A DNA stretch of 64,000 nucleotides. It comes from Neofamilia massiliensis (GTDB lineage Bacteria > Bacillota > Clostridia > Tissierellales > Peptoniphilaceae). The stretch lies in NCBI RefSeq assembly GCF_001299475.1, contig NZ_CYUJ01000002.1, forward strand, positions 62,001 through 126,000. The letters are read 5' to 3'. A program made the position numbers and the translations under genes. The notes beneath the pieces were generated by a model, which saw nothing but the letters and a program-made list of their open reading frames with translations, was not told where the DNA came from and did not search any database. Numbering within the stretch: position 1 is the first letter of the stretch; each line of letters starts with the position of its first letter. This document shows, in pieces, positions 731 to 33,040 of the stretch.

Positions 731-898
731 ATGATTAAAGCAATTAATGAAGTAGCAGAAAAAGGTTATTGGGCAGATGCGAATGCTGGAAACTCAAATA
801 TTGATTCAAAGGATATATGTGAATTCTGTGACACTCGTGACAGTTGCACTCTGTGTGATTCAGAATGGTGTTGGCCTTTAGTTAAAGACTGGGTGTAA
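731..898 (+). CDS. Cys-rich RiPP precursor peptide A (55 aa)
   Basis: The peptide is 55 residues long and is preceded by a strong AAAGGAGG ribosome binding site. The N-terminal half (residues 1-29) has no Cys and would act as leader. The C-terminal half holds five Cys (30, 33, 39, 42, 47) interleaved with Asp, Glu, Thr and Trp, in the pattern CEFC...CTLC...CW. It sits directly upstream of a hairpin terminator and a radical SAM/SPASM enzyme. That arrangement matches the Cys-rich peptide/SPASM maturase (ranthipeptide or SCIFF-like) systems, in which thioether bonds are formed. The family assignment is an inference from gene order and composition. The final product, its crosslinks and the cleavage site are unknown. 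Confidence 0.8.
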   Translation: MIKAINEVAEKGYWADANAGNSNIDSKDICEFCDTRDSCTLCDSEWCWPLVKDWV

Positions 899-939
899 AC
901 AATAATTAGCATTATGAAACTAATTATTTGAGTAACCGA

Positions 940-970
940 ATATAGGAGAGAAATCCTCTCCTATATTTTT
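940..970 (+). terminator. Rho-independent terminator/attenuator after precursor A
   Basis: ATATAGGAGAG (940-950) pairs perfectly with CTCTCCTATAT (956-966) and is followed by a T run. It lies between precursor A and its maturase, so most transcripts would stop here and the peptide mRNA would exceed the enzyme mRNA. This is a common layout in RiPP operons. Confidence 0.8.
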
Positions 971-1011
971 ATGTTCTATTCTAATAAATTAAACTATATA
1001 GGAGTTATGAT

Positions 1012-2361: not shown

Positions 2362-2374
2362 TAGGTGTTCTAAT

Positions 2375-3129
2375 ATGTATAGCACAATATTAAAAACGAT
2401 AAAATGAAATTGGCTGTATAGTGATGAGTATGATTATGAAACAGATATATCTGCAATATTTTATGGCATAAATAGAAGAGATAAATATGCAATAATCATT
2501 AAAGTACATAAGTATGATAATGAAAGTAATAGAACTAATGTAAAATTTAATATAGTGAATAATTCACTATATAATAGAATTAAATATATAAACCAGAGTT
2601 ATATTGATGAACTAAGTGAAAATATAGAAAACCATAATAGTATATCCAGTATAATTCTAGATTCAAGGAATTGTATAGGTGGCAATTTCATGCAAACAAT
2701 TTGCATGATGGATATTTTTTATGGAAGATATAAATTTAGTCTTATAAAAAAGAGGGTACAGACTTGCCTTCTAAAAATCATGATAGCAAATTTTCTAGAA
2801 TTGTATTATTAGTTGGAAAAGGAATTATTTCTGCAGCTGATCCTGTAACAGGAATAAGAGTGAACAATAATAAAAAAGTTGTTATAGGTACTGAAAGCAC
2901 CTTTGGTAAAAATACTGTTCAAAAAACTTTGCATTAGGAATATAATGCTATATATGAACTTAGCGTTTCAAAATTTGAATTTGAGAGCATCATATCTAGT
3001 GGAAACGGTTTTAACCTAAATATAATAGGTAATAGATTTATTCAGGGAGACTATATAGAATTAAACAATATTTCAAATTATTGTATTTCTGACATTAGTA
3101 TTAACATTATAAAAAATATGTGGAGTTAA
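2375..3129 (+). pseudogene. Degraded S41 (C-terminal processing type) peptidase
   Basis: Three broken pieces together read as the catalytic half of an S41 peptidase. The first frame has a stop at 2405-2407 and then continues to SIILDSRNCIGGN (about 2655), like the LDLRxNxGG motif of the family. A frameshift near 2745 moves the reading to a second frame with GKGIISAADP (catalytic Ser region) and VVIGTESTFGKNTVQ, like the GxxTxGKxxxQ motif. A TAG at 2935-2937 interrupts that frame. S41 peptidases accompany Cys-rich peptide maturases in other Firmicutes, so this was probably the leader protease of module A. It is now inactive unless the breaks are sequencing errors. Confidence 0.75.
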
Positions 3130-3161
3130 ATTTTATAACTACGGGATTTGGAGGAAGAAAT

Positions 3162-3866
3162 ATGATTCGATTAGAAAACGTAAGCAAATCATACGCCGAT
3201 AAGATGATTTTGGAAAATATTAATTTCGAGGTTGAACAAGGAGATCGAGTAGTTATCTTAGGGAAGAGCGGTAGTGGTAAGACAACGCTTTTAAATATTA
3301 TAGCAACGATAGATTCTAATTATTCCGGGAATGTTTATCTTTTTAATAACTATTTGAGAAAATTAAAAAATTCTGATATAGCTGAGTTGCGTAGAGATCA
3401 ATTAGGGTTTATCTTTCAAGATTTTGGACTATTGGAGAATTTTAATATTGAAGAAAACATATTATTACCAAGTAGAAGTGCTGGAAAGGATATTAAAAAA
3501 GATGAATATTTTAACAAACTTATAGATGTGTTAAATATCGAGAATTTATTAAAAAGGTATCCATCAGAATTATCTGGTGGAGAAAAGCAGAGAGCTGCTA
3601 TTGCAAGAGCGATTATAAAAAAACCAAAATTAGTGGTAGCTGATGAAATTACATCTGCACTTGATATTTATACATCTAAGGAGCTCATTATCTATCTAGA
3701 TGATGTCGTTACAAAATTTAATATAACTTTATTAATGGTAACACATGATCTTGAAGTTGCTAGAGTATGTAATAAAGTATATTTTATTAGACATGGACAT
3801 CTTATAGAATTAGATAATTTAAACAGTGCAGAAAAACTATTTTATCAAGAGAGTAATGAGGGATAA
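3162..3866 (+). CDS. ABC transporter ATP-binding protein (BceA/LolD-like)
   Basis: This 234-aa ATPase has Walker A (GKSGSGKTT), the Q-loop (FIFQDFGLLENF), the signature LSGGEKQR and Walker B (LVVADE). The start at 3162 is chosen because TTTGGAGGAAG lies just upstream; a GTG at 3120 would extend it without a ribosome binding site. It pairs with the FtsX-like permease that overlaps its 3' end. Such pairs export peptides or protect against antimicrobial peptides. Here it may export peptide A or give self-immunity. Confidence 0.9.
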   Translation: MIRLENVSKSYADKMILENINFEVEQGDRVVILGKSGSGKTTLLNIIATIDSNYSGNVYLFNNYLRKLKNSDIAELRRDQLGFIFQDFGLLENFNIEENILLPSRSAGKDIKKDEYFNKLIDVLNIENLLKRYPSELSGGEKQRAAIARAIIKKPKLVVADEITSALDIYTSKELIIYLDDVVTKFNITLLMVTHDLEVARVCNKVYFIRHGHLIELDNLNSAEKLFYQESNEG

Positions 3867-5787
3867 TATGATAGGGCAAGGAGGTAATAAAAATTATCAT
3901 TATATGTTTAGTATGTCGTTAATTTTTATGTTCTTTTATGCTGTCTTAATTTTGAGCAATAGTGAAGGAATATACGAATTGGCAGAAAATATGGAAAATA
4001 TGAAAGTATTCTTTTCAGTTATATTTGTTGTTTCATTTCTTGTAACAATTAAATTTGCCATTGATGGAATAACACAAGTCATTATAAGGGAAAGAGAAAA
4101 ATTAGGTATATATTCTTTAGCCGGAAATAGAATTGCCTTTTTGGCTCGTATGATAAACGTCAACTTATTAGAAAGTTTTTTTATTGCATCAATTATCGGT
4201 GTGATTTTAGGTACTATATATAGTCATTGTATTGTCATACTTTTAGAATTAATATTTGAAATATCTAATATAGAGATAGATATAATAGGATTTAAAACTT
4301 TTACGGAGTATATTTTACTGCTGCTTATGATTTTGTGTACTAACTATTTGGTTGCATATATTATTTTAAAGAGAAAGGATGTTAAGGATTTAATATATTA
4401 TGAAAATATTTTAAAGGTTGAAGATTCGATTTTAAGAGACAACAATCTTTTTAGATACTCCGTTATTACAGCTGGAATACTAGCTTTAACAGTTTTTTTT
4501 ATTTTTTTAATTACAAAAAATATACAATATGATATTACAATATATTATATTATGGCGAGCTTAATATCTTGTTCTTTTCTTATATATAGATTAACCAAGA
4601 TGATTATTTTAACAAGATTAAATAAAAATGTAAAATTTTCATCTAAAAATTTTTTTAAATATGTTTTTTCGCAAGAAGTTATACGAAATTGGAAAAAATA
4701 TTACAGGAATCAGTGCTTATCAACGACGATTCTTTGTTTATCGTGCTTATTTTTATTTGGTTCATTGACGATTGGATATTCATATAAAGAAAATATAGCT
4801 AAAGAAGCCCCATTTGATCTGGCTGTATCAGTAGATGCCAAGAGTGTCGACTTTAGTAATGTGAAAGATAAAATTGATTTTAATAACGTAAATTATAAGA
4901 TTGAATACAAGGTATACTCAAACGAAGATTTAAAAAAATATAATTTACCTACACAGTGTATAAAATTAAGCGATTATAATTATTTACGTAAAATGTTGAA
5001 TAAAGACCCAATCAATTTATCTGATTATCAATACTTAGTGCAAGTAGAGGATATGATTATTGAAAAAAGGATAAAGGATGAAGTTAAAAATAATCAAATT
5101 AGCATCAATAACAAAGACTTTTATATGGCTGAAAGTATTCAAAATTTTCCATTTCTACAATGTAATATAAATGGAAAATTTGAGTTATTAGTATTTAATG
5201 ATGAAGTAATTAATGACATGCAACTTCCTGTAAAGAGGAATGTTATGATGGTAAGTTTCAAAAATCAGCCGAAAGCTCAATTAAAAAATGAACTATATAA
5301 GACTTTAAATTCTTCAACTAATTTAGTCATGGATAATGAAAAAGAGCATATAACAATTAAAGTTGTCTTGAAAGAGTGGAGTAGACTAAATGGTCTGGTT
5401 GGGTTATCGATATTAACTATTTTTGGAGTTTTTATGGCGTCGATTTTGATATTGATCGCTATTAATAATATCGCTTTTTATAGCATTAAAAATTTAGACA
5501 AAATCTATATAGAAAATAAAATATATTTTGATTTAGGATGGAGTCTTGAACAGATTAGTCAATATAATGCGTTTAGGAACAAGGCGTTCTTTATAAATGC
5601 TACCGAAATGATATTGCTAAGTTTGGTTACTGGGACTGTATCAATGTATTATTTTACAAATCAATATTTAGATAATGATATGTACATATTTGCATTTGCT
5701 ACGATTTCATTGTTATTATATTTGTTAATCATGTTTGTATATAATATAAGTCTAAATAGAATTTTATGTAACAAAATATATGAGTAG
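3826..5787 (+). CDS. ABC transporter permease (FtsX/BceB-like)
   Basis: The protein is about 650 aa with membrane segments near the N-terminus, several in the middle, a large extracytoplasmic domain around residues 330-510, and three segments at the end. This is the layout of BceB-type FtsX permeases. The N-terminal stretch FIKRVMRDNM before the first membrane segment fits the family and supports a start at or near GTG 3826, overlapping the ATPase gene. ATG 3856 and ATG 3868, the latter behind GAGGG and just after the ATPase stop, are real alternatives. A role in export of, or resistance to, the module A peptide is inferred from position. Confidence 0.85.
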   Translation: MQKNYFIKRVMRDNMIGQGGNKNYHYMFSMSLIFMFFYAVLILSNSEGIYELAENMENMKVFFSVIFVVSFLVTIKFAIDGITQVIIREREKLGIYSLAGNRIAFLARMINVNLLESFFIASIIGVILGTIYSHCIVILLELIFEISNIEIDIIGFKTFTEYILLLLMILCTNYLVAYIILKRKDVKDLIYYENILKVEDSILRDNNLFRYSVITAGILALTVFFIFLITKNIQYDITIYYIMASLISCSFLIYRLTKMIILTRLNKNVKFSSKNFFKYVFSQEVIRNWKKYYRNQCLSTTILCLSCLFLFGSLTIGYSYKENIAKEAPFDLAVSVDAKSVDFSNVKDKIDFNNVNYKIEYKVYSNEDLKKYNLPTQCIKLSDYNYLRKMLNKDPINLSDYQYLVQVEDMIIEKRIKDEVKNNQISINNKDFYMAESIQNFPFLQCNINGKFELLVFNDEVINDMQLPVKRNVMMVSFKNQPKAQLKNELYKTLNSSTNLVMDNEKEHITIKVVLKEWSRLNGLVGLSILTIFGVFMASILILIAINNIAFYSIKNLDKIYIENKIYFDLGWSLEQISQYNAFRNKAFFINATEMILLSLVTGTVSMYYFTNQYLDNDMYIFAFATISLLLYLLIMFVYNISLNRILCNKIYE

Positions 5788-5802
5788 AGTAGGGAGTAGC
5801 TA

Positions 5803-7443
5803 ATGTTTGTTGATATAATAAAAGAATTTAAAAAATTTAAAAAAGAGCAAATATTATGCTTTTTGTTTTCCTTTATAAATATCGCATTAATGTTATTGCT
5901 CCCATATACCTTAAAAATGATAGTTGATAAAGGTATAGCTGCTAAAAATCAAGAGGTCTTATTAACTTGGACTGCTTTGTATATTATTATGGTCTTTTTT
6001 CAACATATTTTTGAGTATTTAGCTAATATAAATAGGGTTAAATTAAAGAAAGAGTATTTGATAAATAAAAGAACGCTTATACTAAACAGAATTAAGAATA
6101 TTCAAGGGAACGTTCTAAAAGACTACAGCACGGGTAAGATAGTTAATATCATTAGTGATGATTTAGAACAAATAGGTGCATCATTTACAACTATCTTTTT
6201 TGAACTTTTTAAAAATGTTTTAATGGGTTCTATAGCGGCTATATTTTTATTTAGAATGAACACTCTACTTTTTATGGCTGTTATACTATTACAGCTTGTG
6301 ATAGTATCTATTAACAATAAGCTATCTCGTAAAGTGCAAGATAAGACAAAAGTTTTTATTAAACAAAAAGATACAAATAAACAGGTTTTATATGATTTTA
6401 TTAGCGATATTGAAAATATTGTATTATCAAATGAATGTGAATATTATGCTAAGCGTTCATTGAAAGAGGAGATATGTACACAAAATAAATTTATTGATGC
6501 TATGAATTTATCATTTTTAAATGCGTTTTCTGGAAAATTTGTTAGTGCTATTTCACAGATTATTATTTGGTTTATTGGTGGGATTCTCGTTATAAAATCA
6601 CTTATGTCATTTGGAGAAATTATAGCTTTTATGTCGTATTCTTCTATGCTTTTAGGACCTATTTTAGGATTAACTAATATGAATTATGAAATTAGGTCTA
6701 CTCTCATTTCTTTAGAGAGAGTAAACAATTTTGAACTTGCACTAGATAATTCCATAAATGCAAAAGAACAAATTCATACTGTTGAAACAATTGATTATAA
6801 TAGTGTTAAGTTCAACTATGGTGAGTCAAAAAATATACTAAATAATATAAACTTACATTTTCAAAAAGGAAAAAAATACGGTATCATTGGGAAAAGTGGT
6901 ACAGGAAAAACTACTCTATTGAAGCTTCTATTAGGGTTCTGGAATGCAGAAGATGGAGAACTTAGAGTGAATAATATAAATATAAAATATATAGATAAAT
7001 TTTCGATAAGAGATAGAATTTCACTTGTCACACAAGAAATTATTATCCCTAAAGTCAGCATTAAATCATATCTAACGCTTGATAATAATGTTGAAGAAAG
7101 AATAATCTATAAAGTTTTGGATGATGTTAATTTACTCAGTAAAATAAATCAATTAGATAACGGAATTAATTCGGTTATAGGATCAGAGTTTTCTATGTCA
7201 GTTGGAGAAAAACAAAGATTATGTTTGGCAAAGGCATTACTTAAAGATAAGGATGTATTGATATTAGACGAGTTTACATCTAATATGGATATGGTTAATG
7301 AAGAAGAAATTATTAAGAATATTGTTACTAAATTCAATAACAAAATAATCATAGTAATTACACATAGATTTAAAGTTTTAGAATATTGCGATATTGTTTA
7401 TGAAAGTAAAGGAGATTATTTTGATATGATTTCATATAAATAA
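5803..7443 (+). CDS. ABC exporter, fused membrane and ATPase domains
   Basis: This 546-aa protein has an N-terminal six-helix exporter domain (about residues 1-300) and a C-terminal ATPase. The ATPase has Walker A GKSGTGKTT, signature SVGEKQR and Walker B VLILDEFTS followed by the H-loop THR. It has no N-terminal C39 peptidase domain, so leader removal would need a separate protease. The start follows a GGGAG. It is the same length as the exporter at 8159, and the two may work as a heterodimer or serve modules A and B separately. The cargo is unproven. Confidence 0.88.
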   Translation: MFVDIIKEFKKFKKEQILCFLFSFINIALMLLLPYTLKMIVDKGIAAKNQEVLLTWTALYIIMVFFQHIFEYLANINRVKLKKEYLINKRTLILNRIKNIQGNVLKDYSTGKIVNIISDDLEQIGASFTTIFFELFKNVLMGSIAAIFLFRMNTLLFMAVILLQLVIVSINNKLSRKVQDKTKVFIKQKDTNKQVLYDFISDIENIVLSNECEYYAKRSLKEEICTQNKFIDAMNLSFLNAFSGKFVSAISQIIIWFIGGILVIKSLMSFGEIIAFMSYSSMLLGPILGLTNMNYEIRSTLISLERVNNFELALDNSINAKEQIHTVETIDYNSVKFNYGESKNILNNINLHFQKGKKYGIIGKSGTGKTTLLKLLLGFWNAEDGELRVNNINIKYIDKFSIRDRISLVTQEIIIPKVSIKSYLTLDNNVEERIIYKVLDDVNLLSKINQLDNGINSVIGSEFSMSVGEKQRLCLAKALLKDKDVLILDEFTSNMDMVNEEEIIKNIVTKFNNKIIIVITHRFKVLEYCDIVYESKGDYFDMISYK

Positions 7444-7552
7444 TAAATTAATAGGAGATGTTCATCCTATGTGTAAGATTATTTTTAGTTAAAACTTGGA
7501 TAATAAAATTAAGCTAGACATATTTAAATGATAAAAATTAAAGATTTAAGTA

Positions 7553-7583
7553 AGCATACAAGCATATCAGAATCTTGTATGCT
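7553..7583 (+). terminator. Hairpin, possible terminator
   Basis: AGCATACAAG (7553-7562) is perfectly complementary to CTTGTATGCT (7574-7583) and is followed by TATTTATTTTA. The T-rich tail is broken, so termination is likely but not certain. It would end the module A transcript. Confidence 0.45.
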
Positions 7584-7691
7584 TATTTATTTTACTCAAA
7601 ATTACCCAACTTGTCCTAAGGAATATAGAGGAAAGAAAATTAAGGTAAAAAATAGATCTGATTTCTTTGCCTGTGATATAGGAGGTGGAGT

Positions 7692-7945
7692 ATGAAAGTA
7701 AAAAAGCTTGAAGGTAGACAAGAAATTATAAAGACTGAATATTTGGAAAGAGATTTAAAGGCAGAGCTTAATTTCTATCTATCGGATAAATTCATTCAAG
7801 ATCTCTTTTTTTAGATGAAATTAGCCTTGAAGAATATAGGAAAATTAGAAGAGAAAACAATAAAAAATTCAGACCGATTCTAAATCTATATAATAAAATA
7901 TGTAAGATTTACCTGAATAAGATTTTTTATAGCATCTTAAACTAG
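7692..7945 (+). pseudogene. Broken SHOCT-like small protein of mobile elements
   Basis: After GGAGGTGG there is an ATG frame beginning MKVKKLEGRQEIIKTEYLER that stops at 7812-7814. The continuation in another frame (DEISLEEYRKIRRENN) to 7945 completes a small SHOCT-type protein. Proteins of this kind are commonly found near serine recombinases in Clostridia elements. A base change in the run of T around 7805-7812 explains the break. The flanking DNA (7450-7690 and 7946-8158) holds no other gene that I can support. Confidence 0.5.
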
Positions 7946-8158: not shown

Positions 8159-9799
8159 TTGAGAACTTTTATAAAAAAAATATCAAAAATTGTAAATATA
8201 GATAAAAAGGAGTACTTATATAATCAATTATTATGTTTTTTTTGTCTTATAACGTATACTGCTTCTTCTATTATTTTCCCGAGTTTTTTAAGTAAAATTG
8301 TTGATATTGGTATTGCTAAAAACGATTTTCATGCTATTTTAAAATATTCTTTAGAAATGTTGTTATGTGGTGTTATCATGGTAATTTTTTATTACTATCA
8401 GAGAGTATTTTTTTTCAGATTTGGAAATAAAATTGTTTTAGATACAAGAAAAAAAATATATGAAAAATTATGTAATGTGAACATTTTTTTTTGGAACAAA
8501 CATAAAGTCGGTGATATTTTAACTATTCTTGATAGTGATTTAGATAAATTACAGGAACTTTTGACTTCAAATATAAGTGAGTTAATTGTAAACTTGATTT
8601 TGGCGATAGGAATAGCTTCATATATAATAATATTAAATATAAAAATAGGTGTATTTGTTATTGCTTTAGCTGTAATTTTTGCTATAATTCAGAAATTGAT
8701 TTCCAATAAAAGTAAAGAAGAAATGAGAATCTTTAGAGAAATAATAGGGGATTTCAACTCATATAGTACTGAAACCATTAATAATATGATGTCTTTACAG
8801 ATGACTGGTAAAGTAAGCTATATAAAAAAAACATATTCTAATAAGTGTAATATATTATCATTGAGAGGGTTACGACTTACAAAAATTTTAAGTATGGTAA
8901 GTGTTACTGGGACATCTTTTAATATACTAGCTATTATTTTAGTATTATTTATTGGCGCTTTAGATGTTTCTGATGGCTTACTTTCTGTTGGTTTGCTTTT
9001 CAGTATGACAATATATGTCCAACGATTATATTCTCCGATTGTAACTCTTGGGAATCTCTTTGTCAAAATTAGAAATTTTTCTCCGATTCTTGAAAACATA
9101 TACGATTTGGTTTCTAATGAGAACATAATTGTTCAAGGTTCTTATAAATCGCAACTTCCTTTAACAGGGAAAATCGAATTTAAAAAAGTATCGTTTTCAT
9201 ATAACGGTGAAGATTATGTTATTAAAAATTTTTCTGAGCATTTGAACCCAGGAGATATAGTTGGAATTGTAGGAGAGAATGGAAGCGGAAAGACAACAAT
9301 ATGCAGACTTTTAACCAAGTTATGTGATGTTACTGAAGGTTCAATTGAACTAGATGGTATAAACTTAAATGATATAGAAACTGATTATTTACGAACACAA
9401 ATAGGAGTCATGACTCAAGATAGTTTCATACTAACTGAGGAATTCAATGAATTTTTAAATAATAAACAAAATGCAATTTTACTTCAAAAATATATAAACT
9501 CAATGAACTTTTCTAACTCAGGTATTAATATAACAGAGTCTGGATTTGAGATCAAAGAGAATAAGTTAAACATATCTGGTGGAGAGGCAAAAAAATTAGC
9601 TTTATATAAATTGTATTTAGAGAACAAACCTATCTGTATATTGGATGAACCTACAGCTTTTCTAGATTCTGTCAGTGAAGAGATTATGATTGATTTTATA
9701 AATAACTATTTCAAGGGAAAGACTCTTATTATAATAACACATAAACCAGAGATTTTACGTTTATGTACGAAGATTTTAAAGTTAACTGAAAAATCATGA
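8159..9799 (+). CDS. ABC exporter, fused membrane and ATPase domains
   Basis: The start is the TTG at 8159, eight bases after AAGGAGG; an upstream ATG at 8135 would place the ribosome binding site inside the gene. The resulting protein is 546 aa, the same length as the exporter at 5803. It has about six N-terminal membrane helices and an ATPase domain with Walker A GENGSGKTT, signature ISGGEAKK and Walker B CILDEPTA. No peptidase domain is fused. It directly precedes the module B enzymes with only 16 bases between genes, so it is the likely exporter of peptide B. Confidence 0.88.
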   Translation: MRTFIKKISKIVNIDKKEYLYNQLLCFFCLITYTASSIIFPSFLSKIVDIGIAKNDFHAILKYSLEMLLCGVIMVIFYYYQRVFFFRFGNKIVLDTRKKIYEKLCNVNIFFWNKHKVGDILTILDSDLDKLQELLTSNISELIVNLILAIGIASYIIILNIKIGVFVIALAVIFAIIQKLISNKSKEEMRIFREIIGDFNSYSTETINNMMSLQMTGKVSYIKKTYSNKCNILSLRGLRLTKILSMVSVTGTSFNILAIILVLFIGALDVSDGLLSVGLLFSMTIYVQRLYSPIVTLGNLFVKIRNFSPILENIYDLVSNENIIVQGSYKSQLPLTGKIEFKKVSFSYNGEDYVIKNFSEHLNPGDIVGIVGENGSGKTTICRLLTKLCDVTEGSIELDGINLNDIETDYLRTQIGVMTQDSFILTEEFNEFLNNKQNAILLQKYINSMNFSNSGINITESGFEIKENKLNISGGEAKKLALYKLYLENKPICILDEPTAFLDSVSEEIMIDFINNYFKGKTLIIITHKPEILRLCTKILKLTEKS

Positions 9800-9815
9800 G
9801 TGGAGGTATAAGTCT

Positions 9816-10826
9816 ATGAAATTAAGTATTTGGGTAACAAGATCTTGCAATATGGATTGTGATTATTGCTATGAACAAGATAATTTACGAGATGATATAT
9901 TTATTAATGAGTATGAGTATATTGAAAAATGTATTGATTTCATTAATACAACATGCCACAAGACAAATAGTAATAAATTATTTATTAAATTTTTTGGTGG
10001 AGAACCTTTACTTAAATATCCATTTATATATAAATTTATTAAAAAATTAGATAATGAAATATTACCAGGTATTAGGATTTTTTACTCAATTACGACCAAT
10101 GGTACTTTAATGACAAATGAGATCATTGCTTGGTTTAAAGATAATGACATAGAGTGTGCTTTAAGTATAGACGGAAATAAATCGGTATATGAGTCCAATA
10201 GACATTATAAAAATGGAAAATCTTCATGGGGAACTGTTGATGAACTAATACCCAAGGTTGTGGATAATGGTCTAAAATTATCTGCACGCATGACTTATAA
10301 TTCTAAAACCGTTGATTCATTATATAGTAGTTTGATGTACTTAATTAATCGAGGATTTACAGTATTAAAAGCCATACCTGATTACTTTGATGATAATTGG
10401 GATGATAATCAAATACCAATACTTGAGGAACAAATTAGATTGATTTATAAATTTAAATATGAGAATCAACATATACGTATTAATTTGGATGACGATGACT
10501 TATTTATTGGTAGAAAGGGTTGTGCTGGCGGATATAGTATGTTTAGCTTAGATAGAAATGGTGACATTTATCCATGTACATATATTGTAGGTACTCCTAA
10601 ATTTATTATTGGAAACATTTTTGATAATTGTGAAATCCCATTAAATTATACAGATGGAACACAAATTCATAGAAAAGGTTGTGATGGATGTAAGTATTAC
10701 AAATGTTGTAAAAGTTCCGGTTGTTTGTATGGGAATTATAAGCTTTCAGGTCAATTCGATAAAGTTAATAACTTTTTTTGTTCATATAGAAAAATATTGT
10801 ATAGCATAAAGGAGAGAGGAGTATGA
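9816..10826 (+). CDS. Radical SAM/SPASM enzyme B1, no leader-binding domain
   Basis: This 336-aa protein starts almost directly with the radical SAM motif (CNMDCDYC, Cys11/15/18) and so lacks the N-terminal extension of its neighbours. The C-terminal SPASM region is Cys-rich (CAGGYS, YPCTY, CDGCKYYKCC, FFCSY). It overlaps the next gene by four bases (ATGA), which shows tight coupling. It probably acts on the module B precursor with help from the RRE-bearing partners. The chemistry (thioether, C-C crosslink, epimerisation) cannot be read from sequence. Confidence 0.87.
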   Translation: MKLSIWVTRSCNMDCDYCYEQDNLRDDIFINEYEYIEKCIDFINTTCHKTNSNKLFIKFFGGEPLLKYPFIYKFIKKLDNEILPGIRIFYSITTNGTLMTNEIIAWFKDNDIECALSIDGNKSVYESNRHYKNGKSSWGTVDELIPKVVDNGLKLSARMTYNSKTVDSLYSSLMYLINRGFTVLKAIPDYFDDNWDDNQIPILEEQIRLIYKFKYENQHIRINLDDDDLFIGRKGCAGGYSMFSLDRNGDIYPCTYIVGTPKFIIGNIFDNCEIPLNYTDGTQIHRKGCDGCKYYKCCKSSGCLYGNYKLSGQFDKVNNFFCSYRKILYSIKERGV

Positions 10827-12022
10827 TCAATTATGATAATTTAGTAATTTCGAAATATGCAAAGACTTTATATTGGAAAAATTTATGTATTATTGGTAAT
10901 ATAGCGGTGGATGGGCGTTGGATAAAGATTCCAAAGTCAGTATTGATAGACAGTATTAACAAATTAGAATTTACGGATTCTTCCCAATCACTTGATGAAG
11001 TAACTAGAAAAGTCTTTGATAAATTATATGAAATTCATGTTCTTATAGAAAAAAATAAAATTGAAGATGAAGAAAAGAATTTACTTAGACCTCAAAATGT
11101 AACTATTGAATTGACAACACTATGTAATCTAAAATGTAAACATTGTTCTTACAGCTTTGGTGGAAATAATTATAAAGAGATGTGCATTAGTACAGTTATT
11201 GGTTTGGCTAAATGGTGTTCAGAAAATGGTGTCCAGCGTATAATTTTAACTGGTGGAGAGCCTTTTTGTAGAACTGATATATTTGAAATATTGGAAGGTA
11301 TTCGCTCTTTTTATAGTGGTTCACTAGAAATAATGACAAATGGAACATTGATAGATAAGTCTGATATTCCATTTATTATAGAAAATGTAAATCGATTACA
11401 TATAAGTTTGGATGGATATGATGAAGTAAGTGTATCTTCTATTAGAGGTCAATATGTTTTTGAAAAAATTATTACTCTAATTAATAATTTACATTCAAAT
11501 AACTTTAAGGATATTTCCTTATCGTGTGTAGATACTGGTGATCAAGAGAAAATAACACATTTTTATGAACTAACTAAACGATTAAATGTTCATCCAGTGG
11601 TTCGTAAACTAAATTTAAAGGGGAAAGCTAATGAGAACTTCAAATATAAAAACGCTGAGTCAATCGAGTTAAGTTCTTTAAATGGAACTAATATGAAGTC
11701 TATATGTCATCATAGTTACTCTTCATTATTTGTGAATACAAATGGCGAAGTGTTTCCATGTGCTGCATTGAGAGAAATCGAATATATCATTGGGAAGTTT
11801 TTAGTAAGAGAAAATAAGTTCGAATTTATGTTAGATTCATTAGTTCCGATTATCGACACTATAGAAGATTGTTCATCGTGTCCTGTCAGATATTTTTGCT
11901 CTACCCCTTGTATTTCACAAAATGATGTGATATACTTAAATAAAGAATATAGAATGGAACGTTGCAAAAAATTATATGAAAAATTAATTACCATTGTATG
12001 GGATAATGTTGATGTGAGATAG
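10823..12022 (+). CDS. Radical SAM/SPASM enzyme B2 with RRE-like N-terminus
   Basis: This 399-aa protein has a roughly 85-residue N-terminal domain (NIAVDGRWIKIP, then a helical part), similar in outline to PqqD-like leader recognition domains. It is followed by the radical SAM motif CNLKCKHC (Cys101/105/108) and the conserved LTGGEPF. The SPASM domain ends with CSSCPVRYFCSTPC. It is a clear paralogue of the 407-aa enzyme at 13258; both share GxWIKIP, SLDGYD and CPVRYFC-type motifs. It immediately precedes the precursor gene. It probably binds the leader of peptide B and modifies its core. Confidence 0.87.
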   Translation: MINYDNLVISKYAKTLYWKNLCIIGNIAVDGRWIKIPKSVLIDSINKLEFTDSSQSLDEVTRKVFDKLYEIHVLIEKNKIEDEEKNLLRPQNVTIELTTLCNLKCKHCSYSFGGNNYKEMCISTVIGLAKWCSENGVQRIILTGGEPFCRTDIFEILEGIRSFYSGSLEIMTNGTLIDKSDIPFIIENVNRLHISLDGYDEVSVSSIRGQYVFEKIITLINNLHSNNFKDISLSCVDTGDQEKITHFYELTKRLNVHPVVRKLNLKGKANENFKYKNAESIELSSLNGTNMKSICHHSYSSLFVNTNGEVFPCAALREIEYIIGKFLVRENKFEFMLDSLVPIIDTIEDCSSCPVRYFCSTPCISQNDVIYLNKEYRMERCKKLYEKLITIVWDNVDVR

Positions 12023-12087
12023 CAGTTGGTCGCTATTTTACATAGATTCGTAGTATGTTTTGAAAATATCTTTAAGGAGGTTTATTT

Positions 12088-12252
12088 ATGAAAGAACAAA
12101 ACACTAATACTAAGGATACTTGTAAGGTTGAAGAACTTGACATCGAGATTAAAGGATATGGCTGTGACGATGATTGTCAAGAATTCTTTGAAAAGACAGC
12201 TGGATATAATTGTGGATGGAAACCAACAGATAACACAAGTCCATTATGGTAA
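12088..12252 (+). CDS. Cys-containing RiPP precursor peptide B (54 aa)
   Basis: A 54-residue gene follows a strong TTTAAGGAGG ribosome binding site. The leader part is charged (KDTCKVEELDIEIKG) and the likely core is rich in Cys, Gly, Trp and Pro, with Cys at 12, 26, 30 and 42 and a C-terminus PTDNTSPLW. It lies between two paralogous radical SAM enzymes and just before a subtilisin-like protease. I do not recognise the sequence as a named RiPP family. The core boundary may be near residue 24-25 (GYG-C), but this is a guess. A longer frame in another register over the same DNA (12128-12319) is not supported, because the ribosome binding site belongs to this frame. Confidence 0.78.
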   Translation: MKEQNTNTKDTCKVEELDIEIKGYGCDDDCQEFFEKTAGYNCGWKPTDNTSPLW

Positions 12253-12263
12253 AATTGGGAAAA

Positions 12264-12307
12264 CAATAAAAGGGAGGATGGATTATCCTCCCTTTTATTG
12301 TATTATT
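12264..12307 (+). terminator. Strong hairpin after precursor B (attenuator)
   Basis: A 16-bp perfect stem (12264-12279 with 12285-12300) with a five-base loop contains the GGGAGGAT/ATCCTCCC core and is followed by TATTATT. As in module A, it separates precursor from downstream enzyme genes and should favour precursor transcripts. The T tail is not pure, so read-through to the protease and second enzyme is expected. Confidence 0.8.
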
Positions 12308-12323
12308 AAACAGGATTAAATTC

Positions 12324-13265
12324 ATGAATAAATTAAAAATAGCTGTGTTAGATAGTGGATTTGATTTTCACAGACAATTGCAAAATCCAATAGTTTATAG
12401 TAATAGTTTTTCGAGCGAATTATCACCTATAGATAAAAATGGACATGGAACATGCATTATAACATTAATTGATTCGATTGGGACTAATATAGAAATCTAT
12501 AATATGGCAATTTTAGACAAAAATAGGGAAGGTAATCTTTGTTCGCTTAAGGGTGCATTAAAAGAATCTATTAAAAAGGATGTTAATATAGTAAATCTAA
12601 GTTTAGGAATAGAGAATATGTCCGTTGATTCGGAATTAGAAGGTATTCTATTAGAATGTTGCAGAAAGAAAATAATTCTTGTAACAACCACTTCTAATCG
12701 TGGAAAGTTCAACTATTTAGCACAATACAAAGATATACTTAGTATTCAAAGAAGAAATCATAACCGTGTAAATAATGATCTACTTAAATTAAACCCTGCG
12801 GCTTTTTTTGTAGATAATATACCAAGGGTTGTTCCGTGGATAAATGGAACTTATAAATTAAGTGGTGCAAATAGTTTTTTGACACCATTCCTTATAAAAA
12901 ATTTATATCAAATTAATAAATCAAAAAATGATCTAGAAGAAAGTTACAAAGTGTTACTAAAGTTGCAACCATCAAGTATTTTAAGACTCTCACCTAAACA
13001 GTTAGAAATCAAAAGGGATTGTTTAATTGATAAATCACTTTATAAAAGAATGATATCCAATTCGATTATTACAGATATGTATAATAGTGATGGTAAATTG
13101 ATTATCGAAAATGCTACAAGTGAAAATGTCACAAGGTTAGTTAAGCTTATCAATTCTATAACCAAATTAAATTATATTAATAATTTAATTTGGTTATCAG
13201 ATATTATGTTTATAGAAAATTTAACAAACAAATTATTGAGTATAAAGGAGGATAGTTATGGATGA
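12324..13265 (+). CDS. Minimal S8 (subtilisin-like) protease, likely leader peptidase
   Basis: This 313-aa protein carries the S8 catalytic triad in order: Asp10 (LDSG), His41 (NGHGT) and Ser184 (SGANSFLTP), with Asn125 (TSNRG) at the oxyanion position. There is no signal peptide or prodomain, so it should act in the cytoplasm. It lies between precursor B and enzyme B3, overlaps enzyme B3 by eight bases, and the neighbouring exporters lack a C39 domain. This makes it the probable protease that removes the leader. The catalytic Ser context (GANS instead of GTS) differs from classic subtilisins. About 120 C-terminal residues after the triad have no domain I recognise. Confidence 0.85.
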   Translation: MNKLKIAVLDSGFDFHRQLQNPIVYSNSFSSELSPIDKNGHGTCIITLIDSIGTNIEIYNMAILDKNREGNLCSLKGALKESIKKDVNIVNLSLGIENMSVDSELEGILLECCRKKIILVTTTSNRGKFNYLAQYKDILSIQRRNHNRVNNDLLKLNPAAFFVDNIPRVVPWINGTYKLSGANSFLTPFLIKNLYQINKSKNDLEESYKVLLKLQPSSILRLSPKQLEIKRDCLIDKSLYKRMISNSIITDMYNSDGKLIIENATSENVTRLVKLINSITKLNYINNLIWLSDIMFIENLTNKLLSIKEDSYG

Positions 13266-14481
13266 TAAAATTCGACTTGATGACGTAGCATTTTCTGACT
13301 ATACGAGGATCATTATTAAGAATGACTATATTGTTATAGGAGATATACTTAGAAGTGGGCTTTGGATTAAAATACCTGTTGAAGATTATTACTATATAAA
13401 GCCATATATAGGAATAGTTGATGGGTATAAAAAATTGATGAATAGTTTGGAATCAGTAGAATACAAAGTTTATTATACGAAACTATTGAGGGTTCTTGCA
13501 AAGATAAAGGTTTTGGTAAATAAAGAATTTAAAAAAAGAGAAGTTTTTATTAAGGACTTGTCATTAGAATTAACAACGGCATGCAATTTGAGGTGCAAAC
13601 ATTGTTCTGGAATGTATGGGAGTAAAGAAAATGAATTTTTATCTAATTCTCATTTAAAAAGCATAATAAATTGGGCAAATACTAAGCAAATAAATTCGCT
13701 AACGCTTACAGGAGGGGAAATTTTTTGTATTGAAGATATATATGAAAAATTGAAATACATTCGTAATAATTTTAATGGGAATATAAGTATTATTACTAAT
13801 GCGACATTATTCTCGGAAGAAAAAGTAAGTGTTTTAACAGAATGTGTCGATGAAATAAATATAAGTTTAGATGGATATGACAAGCAAAGCGTAGATTTTA
13901 TACGTGGAAAAGGTACTTTTACCAAAGTTATGGGTTCTATAAAACAATTACAGTTAAATAGTTTTTATAACATTACATTGTCTATGATTTTGACAAGTGA
14001 TAATAGTATTCACATAGATAAATTTAAAAAACTATGCAAAAAAATGAATGTAAGACCTATAACTAGAATATTAGCTATTAAAGGTCGTGCTATAGAAAAT
14101 TATGATTTTTTAATTTCGGAAAGCAATAAAGGTGCAGAAGATAATATCTTAAAGCATATAAATATGTTATCAATGTGTAATGCAGGATTTTCTATGATTT
14201 CTATTACTGCAAGTGGCGCTGTAACGTTATGTGCATCTACTGAAGATAGCAATATAGTTTTAGGAAATTATAATGATTTAGATATGATTTCAAAGAATAT
14301 TAGTCATATACAACAAACTTGTATTGTTGATAAAATTTCACCATGTAAGTTTTGTGATGTGCGTTATTTTTGTTCTTCTAAATGTTATTCAACAAATATT
14401 AATATTTTTACTAATCCCTATTTACGAAAACAAAGATGTATAAAATATAGAGAAAAGTTACAAAAATATGTTTGGGGATGA
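13258..14481 (+). CDS. Radical SAM/SPASM enzyme B3 with RRE-like N-terminus
   Basis: This 407-aa paralogue of enzyme B2 has the same order: an RRE-like N-terminus (SGLWIKIP near residue 35), radical SAM motif CNLRCKHC (Cys109/113/116), LTGGEIF, SLDGYD, and a SPASM end CKFCDVRYFCSSKC. The start ATG follows AAAGGAGGATAGTT and overlaps the protease stop. Two RRE-type enzymes for one precursor suggest either two successive modifications or a heterodimer. No catalytic Cys is missing. Confidence 0.87.
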   Translation: MDDKIRLDDVAFSDYTRIIIKNDYIVIGDILRSGLWIKIPVEDYYYIKPYIGIVDGYKKLMNSLESVEYKVYYTKLLRVLAKIKVLVNKEFKKREVFIKDLSLELTTACNLRCKHCSGMYGSKENEFLSNSHLKSIINWANTKQINSLTLTGGEIFCIEDIYEKLKYIRNNFNGNISIITNATLFSEEKVSVLTECVDEINISLDGYDKQSVDFIRGKGTFTKVMGSIKQLQLNSFYNITLSMILTSDNSIHIDKFKKLCKKMNVRPITRILAIKGRAIENYDFLISESNKGAEDNILKHINMLSMCNAGFSMISITASGAVTLCASTEDSNIVLGNYNDLDMISKNISHIQQTCIVDKISPCKFCDVRYFCSSKCYSTNINIFTNPYLRKQRCIKYREKLQKYVWG

Positions 14482-14592
14482 TTTAATTCTATTTGGAATA
14501 TGAAAATAAATATTTTATAATAATGTGTCATTAATAACTTTTAAATAGATTTAATTTATAGTGTTTGTATATTAGAAGGGAGAGATTTTAAT

Positions 14593-15258
14593 ATGAGCAT
14601 ATTGGAAACTATAAATTTAAAAAAATATTTTGGAAAGGAACCCAATATTACAAAGGCATTAGATGGGATTTCTCTTTCAGTAGGAGAAGGTGAATTTGTT
14701 GCTATTATTGGAACTTCTGGAAGTGGAAAATCCACTTTTTTGAATATGATGGGTGGTTTAGACAAACCAACTTCTGGAAAAGTACTGGTAGATGGAAAAG
14801 ACCTTTCTACACTAAAAGATGAAGAGTTGACTATTTTTCGCAGAAAGAATATTGGATTTATCTTTCAAAATTATAATCTTGTTCCGGTTCTAAATGTATA
14901 TGAAAATATTGTTTTACCAGTAGAATTAGATGGAAAAGCAGTAGATAGTAATTTTATGGACGAAGTAATAGAAATGCTAGGTTTAAAAAACAAACTTCAA
15001 AATATGCCAAATAACCTTTCAGGAGGTCAGCAACAAAGAGTTGCAATAGCTAGAGCTCTTGTAACAAATCCTAAAATTATCTTGGCGGATGAACCTACTG
15101 GAAATCTTGATAGCAAGACTAGTAATGATTTTTTAGAACTTTTAAAACTATCGAGTAGAAAATTTCATCAAACTATAGTTATGATTACACATGATATGGA
15201 TATTTCAGAGCTAGCGGATCGAACTATTCGTATTGAAGATGGAAAAATTTCTAGTTAA
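14593..15258 (+). CDS. ABC transporter ATP-binding protein (MacB/LolD type)
   Basis: This 221-aa ATPase has Walker A GTSGSGKST, Q-loop FIFQNYNLVPVL, signature LSGGQQQRVAIARAL and Walker B ILADEPTGNLDS. The start follows AAGGGAGAG. It is paired with the large FtsX-like permease that begins 13 bases later. MacB-like pairs often export peptides or give immunity. A 111-bp gap without a hairpin separates it from enzyme B3, so it may have its own promoter. Confidence 0.92.
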   Translation: MSILETINLKKYFGKEPNITKALDGISLSVGEGEFVAIIGTSGSGKSTFLNMMGGLDKPTSGKVLVDGKDLSTLKDEELTIFRRKNIGFIFQNYNLVPVLNVYENIVLPVELDGKAVDSNFMDEVIEMLGLKNKLQNMPNNLSGGQQQRVAIARALVTNPKIILADEPTGNLDSKTSNDFLELLKLSSRKFHQTIVMITHDMDISELADRTIRIEDGKISS

Positions 15259-15270
15259 GGAGAATTGTAT

Positions 15271-17772
15271 ATGAAAAACTTTTTTTCTGATAATAATTCT
15301 TATATTAAACTTCTAGCTAAAAAAAGTTACAATGCTAATAAGAAGAGGAATTTATTTGTAGTATTAGCTTTGATGCTGACAACTTTTATGATTACTTCTA
15401 TATTCAGTTTGGGATTTAGTTATTTTGAAACATTAAAGAAGCAACAAATTAGATATATGGGGACAACTGCAGATGCAGCTATAACCAATATTACAAAAAC
15501 ACAAGAAGAAGAATTAAATAGTTCAGGATTGATATCTATAATGGGAATTAGTCAGAGATTAGGAAATATTGATGCGACAGAAAATAAAGATATAAAACTT
15601 GGACTTACGTATATAGATAAAGAAGAATGGGAGAAACATAGAAAACCCACAGTTTCCAATATTACTGGTTCATATCCAGAGGAAGAGAATGAGGTTATGT
15701 GTCCTATTTGGGCATTAAATGAATTGGGAATTAATAATCCTAAGATAGGAATGAAGATTACCTTACCATATAGGATATCAAAAATTAATAAAGTTTTTAA
15801 TAAAGATTTTATACTTTCAGGCTATTATAATGATTATACAACTACTCGTGTGGGGAAACGTGGTTCAGTATATGTATCAAAAATTTTCGCTGACAAAATT
15901 GACCTACCTTTTGAAGATAGAACTAGTGCAATGATTACTTTTAATGGAGACGAGAAAGCTGAGCATTCTCTTGAAAAATTAAAATCTGAAATTGATTTTT
16001 CAGAAAAACAATCTTTTCAAATTGTACCATCAAAACAAGGAGATAATTTTTCTATAGTTCTTTCCTGTGTTGCTTTAATATTTATCATAATGGTAAGTGG
16101 ATATTTATTAATATACAATATACTCTATATTTCAATTTCAAGGGATACAAGATTTTATGGACAACTTAAAACAATTGGCTTTACTAAAAAACAAATAAAA
16201 AAGGTTGTAAAATGGCAAATATTAAGATTGTCCAGTATTGGTATCCCCATAGGTCTTTTATTAGGATGTTTTGTTTCGCTATTTGTAGTTCCATTTGCTA
16301 TGAGGATGCTGTCTTCTAGCAATGCTGAATTAGGAACAAAAATCTCTTTTTCTCCTATTATATTTATTGGAGCTGGAATATTTGCGTTGTTAACTGCAAT
16401 AATTGGAAGTATGAAACCAGCTAGAGTTGCTGGGAAAGTGTCTCCTATAACTGCGTCTCGATATATAGACAAGACTATAAAGACACCTGATAAAAGAAGG
16501 AGTCATCAAATAAAATTATCTAGAATGGCATTTAGAAATATTTTTAGGAATCCTAAAAGTGCAATGCTTACTTTTGGATCATTGTTTTTAGGTTTGACAA
16601 TGTTTCTAATATCCACTGGACTTTTATCAAGCTTAAATCCTAAAAACTTTGTAAGTGAATGGGGAGAAAGTGATTATGCATTGACCTACAGTATTCATGA
16701 AGAGAGTGAGCTACTAACATCTGAAATGGCAGAAAAAATAAAAGAAATTAAGGGTGTTAAAAATGTCAGATTGACATATGCATCTTCAAAAATAAAAATT
16801 CCTGTTATATATGACCAAAAGGTTTTTGGAAAATATATTGAATCTTTAGATAGTGTATCTGGACTTGACTTTTCAGATCCAAAAAATGTAAAGAAATATA
16901 CTGATAATTTTTTCAGTGGCGTTTATGGCATTGATGAGAAATATGTTAAAGAGCTTAATGAAACACTTAAGAACCCAATTGATCTAAAAGCATTTGAAAA
17001 TGGTGAAATTGTTTTATTATCTTCTATGACAGATAATAATGGCAATCCACTAATCTCTCAAGGGGAATCAATAACTATAGTTGGAGAAGATGATAAAAAG
17101 CATACTCTAACTGTTGCTAATGGATTTTTGGATGCAGATTTTCAAAGTGGAAGGGGGATTGAAAGAGGAACTGCCCCAAATTTATATATTAGCCAGCAGG
17201 CACTAAAAAAATTTTTTCCTAATACAAAAATATTTAGGATAGCATTTGATATAGACGAAGGAGTTGATAATAAGCAAATTGATGATAAACTACAAAAAAT
17301 CATATCTTCATCTCAAGTTAATATTCAATCCAGATATGAAAAGTATAAAGAAATTGAACAATATTTATTCACTTCACGAGTTTTGGCAACTGGAACAGCT
17401 ATTGTGTTCTTGATAATTGGGATTATGAATTTTATAAATACAATGGTTGTGAGTGTAGATACACGTAAGCAAGAATTTGCTACTCTTGAAAGCATTGGTA
17501 TGTCAAAAAAACAAATAAAAACTGTTTTACTATATGAAGGTTGGTATTACTGGATTATCTCGTTTTTATTGCTTGGAACAATTGGAACAGGGATATATAT
17601 ACCTATCTATATGAGTTTTAAGAAAATAGCATACTATTCAGTTTTTAGCTACCCAATTTATCATCTATTGATAGTTGGAATAATTACTTTAATATTATGT
17701 TTAACAGTACCTATAATTATTTTTAATATAGATCTCAAAAAAACTATTATTGAGAGATTGCGTCAAAATTGA
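15271..17772 (+). CDS. FtsX-like ABC permease, large (about 833 aa)
   Basis: ATG 15271 is preferred because AAGGAG lies eight bases upstream; a TTG at 15265 is too close. The protein has a first membrane segment near residue 30, a large extracytoplasmic domain, three segments around 250-380, a second extracytoplasmic domain, and three segments at the end. This is the two-halved FtsX/MacB-like permease form. With the ATPase at 14593 it likely exports a peptide or protects the producer from it. It is the last gene of the RiPP locus. Confidence 0.88.
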   Translation: MKNFFSDNNSYIKLLAKKSYNANKKRNLFVVLALMLTTFMITSIFSLGFSYFETLKKQQIRYMGTTADAAITNITKTQEEELNSSGLISIMGISQRLGNIDATENKDIKLGLTYIDKEEWEKHRKPTVSNITGSYPEEENEVMCPIWALNELGINNPKIGMKITLPYRISKINKVFNKDFILSGYYNDYTTTRVGKRGSVYVSKIFADKIDLPFEDRTSAMITFNGDEKAEHSLEKLKSEIDFSEKQSFQIVPSKQGDNFSIVLSCVALIFIIMVSGYLLIYNILYISISRDTRFYGQLKTIGFTKKQIKKVVKWQILRLSSIGIPIGLLLGCFVSLFVVPFAMRMLSSSNAELGTKISFSPIIFIGAGIFALLTAIIGSMKPARVAGKVSPITASRYIDKTIKTPDKRRSHQIKLSRMAFRNIFRNPKSAMLTFGSLFLGLTMFLISTGLLSSLNPKNFVSEWGESDYALTYSIHEESELLTSEMAEKIKEIKGVKNVRLTYASSKIKIPVIYDQKVFGKYIESLDSVSGLDFSDPKNVKKYTDNFFSGVYGIDEKYVKELNETLKNPIDLKAFENGEIVLLSSMTDNNGNPLISQGESITIVGEDDKKHTLTVANGFLDADFQSGRGIERGTAPNLYISQQALKKFFPNTKIFRIAFDIDEGVDNKQIDDKLQKIISSSQVNIQSRYEKYKEIEQYLFTSRVLATGTAIVFLIIGIMNFINTMVVSVDTRKQEFATLESIGMSKKQIKTVLLYEGWYYWIISFLLLGTIGTGIYIPIYMSFKKIAYYSVFSYPIYHLLIVGIITLILCLTVPIIIFNIDLKKTIIERLRQN

Positions 17773-18012: not shown

Positions 18013-19353
18013 TTATCTTTCAATTTCTTCTTTATAATAATTTTCATAGTTTTTCCTATACTGAACAAGGTCGGAAAATTGCTCTTTATTCAAAGAATAC
18101 TCTTGCATAAGGGTGTTCTTTTTTTCTTGCAATTTATTGAGATTTGATAGTATTTCTTTTGTATTTGGAGGCTTTTTATAGTTAACTAAAATTTCTTTAG
18201 CGGCTATTTTATAGACGGAAATTTCACTATAATATTCTTCTGCAAATTGCTTGTCCTCAGGATTTTTCTTGTGGTATTTATAGATTTCACGATACTTATT
18301 TATAGTATTAATATTTTCCATATCTTGAGATAAACTCTTCATTTCAGTTTCAAATTTCTTTATTTTATCTAACAAGTCTTGTCTATCATCAGCAGATTTT
18401 TTGATCAGGTCATCGAGTTGAGTAATTGAATTAATTCCTTGCTCTCTAAGTTTAATTATTGAATCTGCCATTGTTTTTATATTATGTTTCCTTGCCCAAA
18501 CTTCATAACCTTTAGAGGATAGAGCTTTTTTATTAGTAGAGATATCAATAACATTTCCTACTCGTTTTTTAATAGGATTAGCTTTGTTTTTAATAGCTAA
18601 ATCTATTCTTTCTTTGATTTTTTCTTCGGTATAATCTTCTCCGATAGTCTTAGCTCTTGTAAATCTTTGTTTGTCTTTATGGCGAAAAGCTATGTGTTTA
18701 CCAAACTTAATTTCATAATCAAGAGATTTCATATTTTCTAAAAACTCTTCCCACGAGTTAGACTTATTAATCATTCTATCTATATCAAATTGCAGTTTAG
18801 ATTTCCAAGAATTTCCTTTCTTATTTTGGTCATATTCGTACCAAGATTTACCTGCAGTTTTATATTTTCTTTTGTAAGCTTCATAATATTCATCAATGAC
18901 TGAAAGCTTATTTTCATTACATAATTCGTCACTTTGATACCTAATTTTATGGTAAGTTTTTTTGTTGGATTGATAGCATTTGCCAGTCTTGTAATTGACA
19001 TTATTAAAAATAATATGGTTGTGGATATGCCCTCTATCTATATGTGTTGCAAGAACAAATTCATAATCTTCTTTTAAAATTTTCTTGCATAATTCCATTC
19101 CAATTTCGTGAGCTTTTATAGGATCAACCTCTCCTGGTAGAAAAGATTGAATTAAATGTCTAGCCAAAACTGTACCTTTAGTATCATTGTCTTCTCGTGT
19201 TCTCATAAATTGAATATGAGCAGTAGATGGATGACATTTGAATGAAGATACTAAGATTTTTTCATCAGTTTTTTCACTCTTAGTTATATAATCTATTGCC
19301 AAATTTAGAGTTGATTTTATAGGATGTATTTTTGTAATTGCCATATTATTCAT
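18013..19353 (-). CDS. Relaxase/mobilisation nuclease (MobA/VirD2 type, MOB-P)
   Basis: This 446-aa protein has the relaxase three-histidine motif in HIDRGHIHNHIIFNNV (about residues 108-123) and an N-terminal segment typical of the family (MAITKIHPIKSTLNLAIDYI). The C-terminal half is a long, charged coiled-coil region. It nicks DNA at oriT and pilots the strand in conjugative transfer. It overlaps the MobC gene by eight bases. With no type IV secretion genes in the window, the element looks mobilisable rather than self-transmissible. Confidence 0.92.
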   Translation of the reverse strand: MNNMAITKIHPIKSTLNLAIDYITKSEKTDEKILVSSFKCHPSTAHIQFMRTREDNDTKGTVLARHLIQSFLPGEVDPIKAHEIGMELCKKILKEDYEFVLATHIDRGHIHNHIIFNNVNYKTGKCYQSNKKTYHKIRYQSDELCNENKLSVIDEYYEAYKRKYKTAGKSWYEYDQNKKGNSWKSKLQFDIDRMINKSNSWEEFLENMKSLDYEIKFGKHIAFRHKDKQRFTRAKTIGEDYTEEKIKERIDLAIKNKANPIKKRVGNVIDISTNKKALSSKGYEVWARKHNIKTMADSIIKLREQGINSITQLDDLIKKSADDRQDLLDKIKKFETEMKSLSQDMENINTINKYREIYKYHKKNPEDKQFAEEYYSEISVYKIAAKEILVNYKKPPNTKEILSNLNKLQEKKNTLMQEYSLNKEQFSDLVQYRKNYENYYKEEIER

Positions 19354-19702
19354 CAGAACTTTCTTTTGATTTATTAAGAAGTAGGGAATGGATCTGCCAT
19401 ATTTCTCTTGATAATTTTTCTATCTGATTATTCATAGATTCAATTTCATTTTTGTAAATAACACCAGTTGTATTAGTAGCTTTTGCAATCTGGTTTATAT
19501 TATTTGTTGCATTTGAAAGCAGCCATTGTAGGTTTCTAAATGGTTCTAAATCTACAACATATATCTCTTTTTCCAATACACATTTTCTAAGAAAGTGGGA
19601 CATTGTTTTGCAATTTGCAAGTTTCATTTTCTTTTCAAAAACTTCCTTTTCTTCCTTAGTTAATTTTATTTCTATTCTTTCATTTCTAAATCTATTTGCC
19701 AT
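19346..19702 (-). CDS. MobC-like relaxosome protein
   Basis: This 118-aa basic protein begins with RNERIEIKLTKEEKEVFEKK and has the LEPFRNLQWLLSNATNNINQIAKATN segment typical of MobC proteins. It helps the relaxase open oriT. It lies just downstream (in transcription sense) of the candidate oriT. An AGGAG lies upstream of the start. Confidence 0.9.
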   Translation of the reverse strand: MANRFRNERIEIKLTKEEKEVFEKKMKLANCKTMSHFLRKCVLEKEIYVVDLEPFRNLQWLLSNATNNINQIAKATNTTGVIYKNEIESMNNQIEKLSREIWQIHSLLLNKSKESSDE

Positions 19703-27886: not shown

Positions 27887-27893
27887 AAAGCTC

Positions 27894-33038: not shown

Positions 33039-33040
33039 GA

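Follow-up and report, generated by a model that had tools for sequence, protein, structure and literature searches.

What does the operon at positions 8159-14481 of a 64,000-nucleotide stretch of the Neofamilia massiliensis genome make? In this stretch (contig NZ_CYUJ01000002.1; hereafter the window, whose numbering we use), a mobile element of a gut-type anaerobe bears one closely packed operon of an ATP-binding cassette (ABC) exporter, a 54-amino-acid (aa) peptide, an S8 protease and three radical S-adenosylmethionine (radical SAM) enzymes. The peptide is very probably the precursor of a ribosomally synthesized and post-translationally modified peptide (RiPP). We think it likely that the operon belongs to a distinct, apparently unnamed RiPP family, in which CxxDC precursors are encoded beside paired radical SAM/SPASM enzymes (only one of which has a RiPP recognition element, or RRE), thioether bonds are formed, an S8 protease removes the leader, and the product is exported. 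The genes and features are:

8159..9799, + strand: ABC exporter with membrane and ATPase domains (Pfam PF00664 and PF00005 only; no C39 peptidase domain)
9816..10826, + strand: enzyme A, a stand-alone, CteB/PapB-like radical SAM/SPASM enzyme with no RRE (336 aa)
10823..12022, + strand: enzyme B, with RRE, radical SAM and SPASM regions (399 aa)
12088..12252, + strand: precursor peptide (54 aa), with AAGGAGG, C26-D-D-D-C30, a third core cysteine (Cys42) and the leader motif LDIEIK at residues 17-22
12263..12301, + strand: terminator- or attenuator-like hairpin between the precursor and the downstream genes
12324..13265, + strand: S8 subtilisin-like protease, predicted to remove the leader (313 aa; PF00082; D10/H41/S184 and N125)
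13258..14481, + strand: enzyme C, a second RRE-type radical SAM/SPASM enzyme and duplicate of B (407 aa)
14593..15258, + strand: ABC ATPase with ABC motifs, resembling the ATPases beside relatives' clusters; candidate for self-protection together with the next gene
15265..17772, + strand: FtsX/MacB-type permease (PF02687), candidate self-protection transporter

The exporter starts with a TTG at 8159 behind GGAGG, and its longest open reading frame (ORF) begins at 8135. A first-pass annotation, made from the letters of the DNA alone, had listed these parts along with overlapping starts and stops, a strong attenuator, and four cysteines in the precursor (Cys12, Cys26, Cys30, and Cys42). All of this was borne out: the ORFs are as described; Pfam agrees on the radical SAM and S8 proteins, the exporter, and the FtsX permease; A and B overlap by 4 nucleotides and the S8 gene and C by 8; and the attenuator is a perfect 18-bp hairpin (-25.9 kcal/mol, z = -4.8, with 0 shuffled sequences equally stable). 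Comparable hairpins lie right after the precursor in seven relatives (loci L140, L053, L161, L164, L137, L139, and L160), so partial termination after the precursor appears to be a recurrent trait.

We searched whole genomes and GTDB contigs with the S8 protease, then with the RRE enzymes, and then with enzyme A, and read the neighborhoods of the matches. We found 17 further clusters with an A-type gene beside a B/C-type gene, from several families of Clostridia and with A at 27-36% identity; these include two clusters in Lachnotalea glycerini and one in a Ruminococcus metagenome-assembled genome. A CxxDC precursor adjoins the enzyme pair in all 17 clusters outside the window, versus 2 of 76 control radical-SAM loci, and the motif arises by chance in about 1% of shuffled precursors, taken one at a time. 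The Asp is invariant together with both Cys across all family precursors. Outside CxxDC, the cores are hypervariable; W, Y, T, and S are abundant in them. The leaders, aligned across the 18 clusters, have in common K-I-x-K-I and then (D/E)(V/I/L)xxQ; the latter motif is present in 13 of 20 precursors, versus 1.35 expected after shuffling. As judged from these alignments, the operon shows what characterizes a RiPP: a precursor encoded beside its enzymes, a conserved leader, a variable core, and retention in relatives. The first-pass annotation had called this a RiPP cluster and had made that call depend on the precursor staying beside the enzymes in relatives; gene set and precursor motif do recur together in unrelated Clostridia.

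The window's precursor has no match in NCBIfam or Pfam, which agrees with the first-pass remark that it was not recognized as a named family, and the precursors of four relatives have none in NCBIfam. In model searches, it was not freyrasin-like (NF037957), did not belong to TIGR04065, and fit no other curated RiPP family. Its leader has D18-I-E-I-K22 at the position equivalent to (D/E)(V/I/L)xxQ, with Lys where most relatives have Gln. Because Cys12 lies upstream of this conserved motif, it probably belongs to the leader and is absent from the product, which leaves a core with three cysteines (26, 30, and 42). The predicted core, GYGC26DDD29C30QEFFEKTAGYNC42GWKPTDNTSPLW, has about 32 residues and a mass of 3646.48 Da before crosslinking. 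We considered whether the second RRE enzyme goes along with an upstream cysteine, and rejected this because Cys12 precedes the leader motif and has no homology with the cysteines found upstream in the precursors of relatives. We also rejected a 55-aa ORF at 7528-7695 as an extra precursor: it weakly matches a family associated with transposases, and its neighborhood is decayed. In some relatives, one cluster has two CxxDC precursors that differ from each other (L038, 11513-11913; L033, 5720-5890 and 11917-12078).

Most clusters are built on a ground plan of one RRE enzyme and one stand-alone enzyme, with a precursor, an S8 protease (encoded by 16 of the 18 clusters when the window's is included), and an exporter. 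The window does have the three radical SAM enzymes that the first-pass annotation put at the center of its proposal, but they do not define the family, as most relatives have two. In a tree of the RRE enzymes, B and C are sisters (support 100/98), C aligns with B across the RRE region, and further duplications are found at L160 and in the L033/L034 lineage. B and C are thus, on the evidence of the tree, a lineage-specific duplicate pair, and the third radical SAM enzyme is an embellishment.

The A enzymes form one clade: a branch of the tree sets them apart with support 93/50, and it is well supported (97/88) if L041 is included. L041 (8178-13250) is a variant in which the S8 gene is flanked by two stand-alone radical SAM genes; the locus also has a further radical SAM gene, and the two precursors there have in common CxxDC and a PWITDA tail. 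The family is rare: an RRE enzyme of the B/C kind (E 1e-60) is encoded in 11 of 249 genomes from the order and 5 of 391 from the class. One of the two CxxDC-positive control loci, L116 (5044-6371), has a 50-aa ORF containing CGWDC directly after a stand-alone radical SAM gene, with no S8 gene nearby, and is possibly a distant relative. L163, with two RRE-like enzymes, no S8 gene, and no CxxDC, was rejected as a family member.

Which bond the enzymes would make has to be judged from their nearest relatives. The closest NCBIfam model to enzyme A is PapB (NF047865; 168.5 bits, cut-off 340), and A also scores below the cut-offs for the SCIFF maturase (TIGR03974; 101.8 bits, cut-off 425), QhpD (TIGR03906; 97.1 bits, cut-off 453), and CcpM (TIGR04068; 110.1 bits, cut-off 500). 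The top match of the A-family profile in the PDB is CteB (5wgg, E 6e-50). Three radical-SAM cysteines and seven auxiliary-cluster cysteines are invariant among 18 homologues of A. The nearest matches of the B/C family profile are SkfB (best score) and then CteB, and the Fe-S cysteines of B and C are invariant or nearly so in the alignment. In the AlphaFold model of enzyme B (mean confidence, pLDDT, 82.8), the best fold matches are SuiB, CteB, and SkfB, and the N-terminus has 3-4 strands and 3 helices. This predicted structure, which matches the folds of SuiB and CteB over its full length, identifies the N-terminus as a winged-helix RRE of the leader-binding type. Viperin-like PADLOC matches of the radical SAM enzymes were dismissed, as they reflect the shared radical SAM core only.

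We propose that the leader, whose consensus is K-I-x-K-I...L-D-V-x-G-Q, docks on the RRE of B (and of C), and that this places the core at all three active sites (A, B, and C). Enzyme A, with no RRE, is expected to work in a complex with B or C; the model is TrnC and TrnD, two radical SAM enzymes that divide a single task between them in a complex held in contact by RRE domains (PMC12093266). The core cysteines (Cys26, Cys30, and perhaps Cys42) would then be joined to carboxylate-bearing or other side chains by thioether bonds, at a loss of 2 Da each, and the acceptors most likely include the invariant Asp29. There is precedent for this: PapB bonds Cys to the β-carbon of Asp and accepts Cys-Xn-Asp with n = 0-6 (PMC9413430), CteB makes related thioether-type bonds (PMC11002830), and QhpD makes thioethers by radical SAM chemistry (PMC7876137). 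Given these enzymes and the invariance of the Asp, thioether formation at CxxDC is our leading interpretation.

The S8 protease would release the core. Its residues D10, H41, N125, and S184 are the sole invariant ones in 16 homologues, and its predicted structure has a subtilisin fold (Foldseek match to subtilisin, E 1.7e-13). With an intact Asp/His/Ser triad, an oxyanion Asn, and this modeled fold, it has the makings of a leader protease. It has no signal peptide, which accords with the first-pass proposal that the leader is removed inside the cell. The closest NCBIfam model is QhpE (NF049966; 60.7 bits, below the cut-off of 165; 91.2 bits for the relative at L039), and QhpE sets a precedent for this step, as it works in the cytoplasm, cutting a leader ahead of export by the ABC protein QhpF (PMC7876137). 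ElxP is also a cytoplasmic S8 leader protease, with the recognition motif (D/E)(L/V)xxQ and Gln at -1 (PMC10885120). By analogy, we predict that the window's protease cuts at the ElxP-like site after Lys22, giving the core GYGCDDDC...PLW; since the site reads D18-I-E-I-K22, this prediction is less confident than for relatives with Gln. The peptidase-free ABC exporter would then secrete the core, as the first-pass annotation had supposed: the C39 domain is missing from all nine family exporters examined with Pfam, which fits leader removal by the S8 protease. The hairpin would let the precursor exceed the protease and enzyme C in amount. FtsX permeases flank the window's cluster and 7 of 7 other clusters tested (ABC-2 type transporters are found in two more), and the ABC ATPase/FtsX pair may protect the producer. 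The product is very probably a small secreted peptide crosslinked via its cysteines, which might act as an antimicrobial or a signal.

Several observations weigh against this pathway. Enzyme A is under the NCBIfam cut-off for every thioether maturase, and B and C have no close characterized homologue, which leaves room for a different radical reaction (epimerization, an α-carbon thioether, or a C-C or C-O crosslink). The window's leader is without the Gln of the cleavage motif. No S8 gene was found at L161, and the one nearest to L160 is about 10 kb off, in a neighboring locus. Finally, the control loci and family members that we compared are not phylogenetically independent. The first of these points bears on a rival in which the enzymes make sactionines (Cys sulfur to α-carbon) or C-C/C-O crosslinks and the Asp of CxxDC is a recognition residue only. 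The best score of the B/C profiles is indeed against a sactisynthase, SkfB; the fold matches of B include SuiB, which forms a Lys-Trp C-C crosslink, and the epimerase EpeE; and W, Y, T, and S are plentiful in the cores. Nevertheless, the Asp is as invariant as the two cysteines in every family precursor, and A groups with the profiles of PapB and CteB, which make β/γ-carbon thioethers, so we regard this rival as unlikely, if worth keeping in mind. The cysteines might instead form disulfides or bind metal, as C-x-x-D-C could, with the radical SAM enzymes modifying other residues. The closest characterized relatives with Cys substrates form thioethers (PMC11002830), and we consider this rival quite improbable.

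The crosslinked peptide could also be an enzyme subunit, as in the Qhp protein-cofactor system, and not a free secreted peptide. The gene logic is alike (a radical SAM enzyme, an S8 protease for which QhpE is the nearest named family, and an ABC exporter). However, the scores fall below the cut-offs for QhpD and QhpE, the operon lacks genes for enzyme subunits such as those of an amine dehydrogenase, the core has about 30 residues and, like those of bacteriocin-like RiPPs, is hypervariable except at CxxDC, and many clusters are accompanied by FtsX or ABC-2 type transporters. We therefore give this explanation very little weight.

A thioether-forming RiPP pathway could still belong to a known family. 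The ranthipeptides (PapB/freyrasin, and CteB/thermocellin or SCIFF) also have radical SAM/SPASM maturases with two auxiliary clusters, pair Cys with Asp or Thr acceptors, and occur in Firmicutes, but the window's maturase is split into a stand-alone and an RRE enzyme, its precursor fits no freyrasin or SCIFF model, and an S8 protease belongs to the cluster. In the thuricins CD and Z, two radical SAM/SPASM enzymes (TrnC/TrnD and ThzC/ThzD) act on one precursor and one enzyme has a canonical RRE; unlike the window's system, these make sactionines, have an N-terminal RRE-like region in both enzymes, and lack CxxDC. The epilancin 15x protease ElxP resembles the window's in location and leader motif, but it serves a lanthipeptide pathway. 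The CLI_3235/CcpM Cys-rich systems (TIGR04065, TIGR04068, and TIGR04069) likewise combine a clostridial radical SAM enzyme with S8 and ABC proteins (as at L048), and some S8 homologues of our family have weakly acyl-carrier-like C-terminal tails; these systems differ in their precursor family, their single CcpM maturase, and a free acyl-carrier-related protein that is not in the window. The tail of the L039 protease has an E value of 0.006 to acyl carrier proteins, and both L045 and L048 are clostridial CLI_3235/CcpM-type clusters with an S8 protease, an ABC exporter, and an acyl-carrier-related protein. Filing the window's system as Qhp, PapB, SCIFF, or CcpM was rejected because it misses the model cut-offs.

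The set as a whole matches no curated model, and full-text searches of open-access literature turned up no paper that describes it; the atlas of radical-SAM RiPPs by Clark and Seyedsayamdost (2022) may list it. The first-pass annotation had gone further and proposed a new RiPP class. Because the enzymes resemble thioether-forming ranthipeptide/sactipeptide maturases, the safer claim, on these sequence comparisons, is a new family within the radical-SAM, ranthipeptide-like RiPPs, with a new class unproven. A new class would have an obligate radical SAM pair that gives an undescribed CxxDC crosslink topology (for example, a single compact set of rings that encloses the Asp and in which both cysteines are bonded) before the S8 protease releases the product, and we are doubtful of this. 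As a family, it is testable and transferable, and the anaerobes that have it include human-associated ones. It can be searched for by a clear handle, namely a CxxDC precursor beside the A and B enzyme pair and an S8 protease; the leader protease comes with a predicted recognition motif and is useful for freeing products made in a heterologous host; and in the enzyme pair, the stand-alone maturase probably must borrow its RRE.

The operon appears to travel. Between -1283 and 26277, the parts of the DNA that were compared match the end of a Peptoniphilus phoceensis SIT15 contig at 99.8-100% identity. It encodes a relaxase (18013-19353), a mobilization protein (19346-19702), and a large serine recombinase (24523-26343), which identify the block as a mobilizable element, by its gene content, that carries two RiPP clusters and is common to two genera. 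A single mobilizable element takes both RiPP clusters from genus to genus within one family. In a third genus (L032), the cluster's end, including a copy of the ABC ATPase, is 98% identical and is joined to other DNA: the cluster breaks inside the S8 gene (L032, 4830-4961) and meets unrelated DNA just before the contig end, which leaves that locus without the upstream genes. The L032 copy of enzyme C has few changes (nonsynonymous divergence, dN, of 0.008 versus synonymous divergence, dS, of 0.039), which suggests that enzyme C is under purifying selection. A DNA-level search of a plasmid collection gave no match.

The second RiPP cluster is separate and lies directly upstream (731-7443). It has a freyrasin-like, Cys-rich precursor (731-898; 26.9 bits, cut-off 30), a PapB maturase (1012-2361; 373.8 bits, above the cut-off of 340), an ABC/permease pair, and an exporter, along with degraded-looking fragments of an apparent S41-type protease (2555-2937). 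Downstream of the element, a 3.8-kb stretch (26278-30046) is missing from the P. phoceensis contig, and the region at 30047-34294, which encodes an ArsA ATPase and a transporter of the SBF family that may carry arsenite, is 93% identical to that contig.

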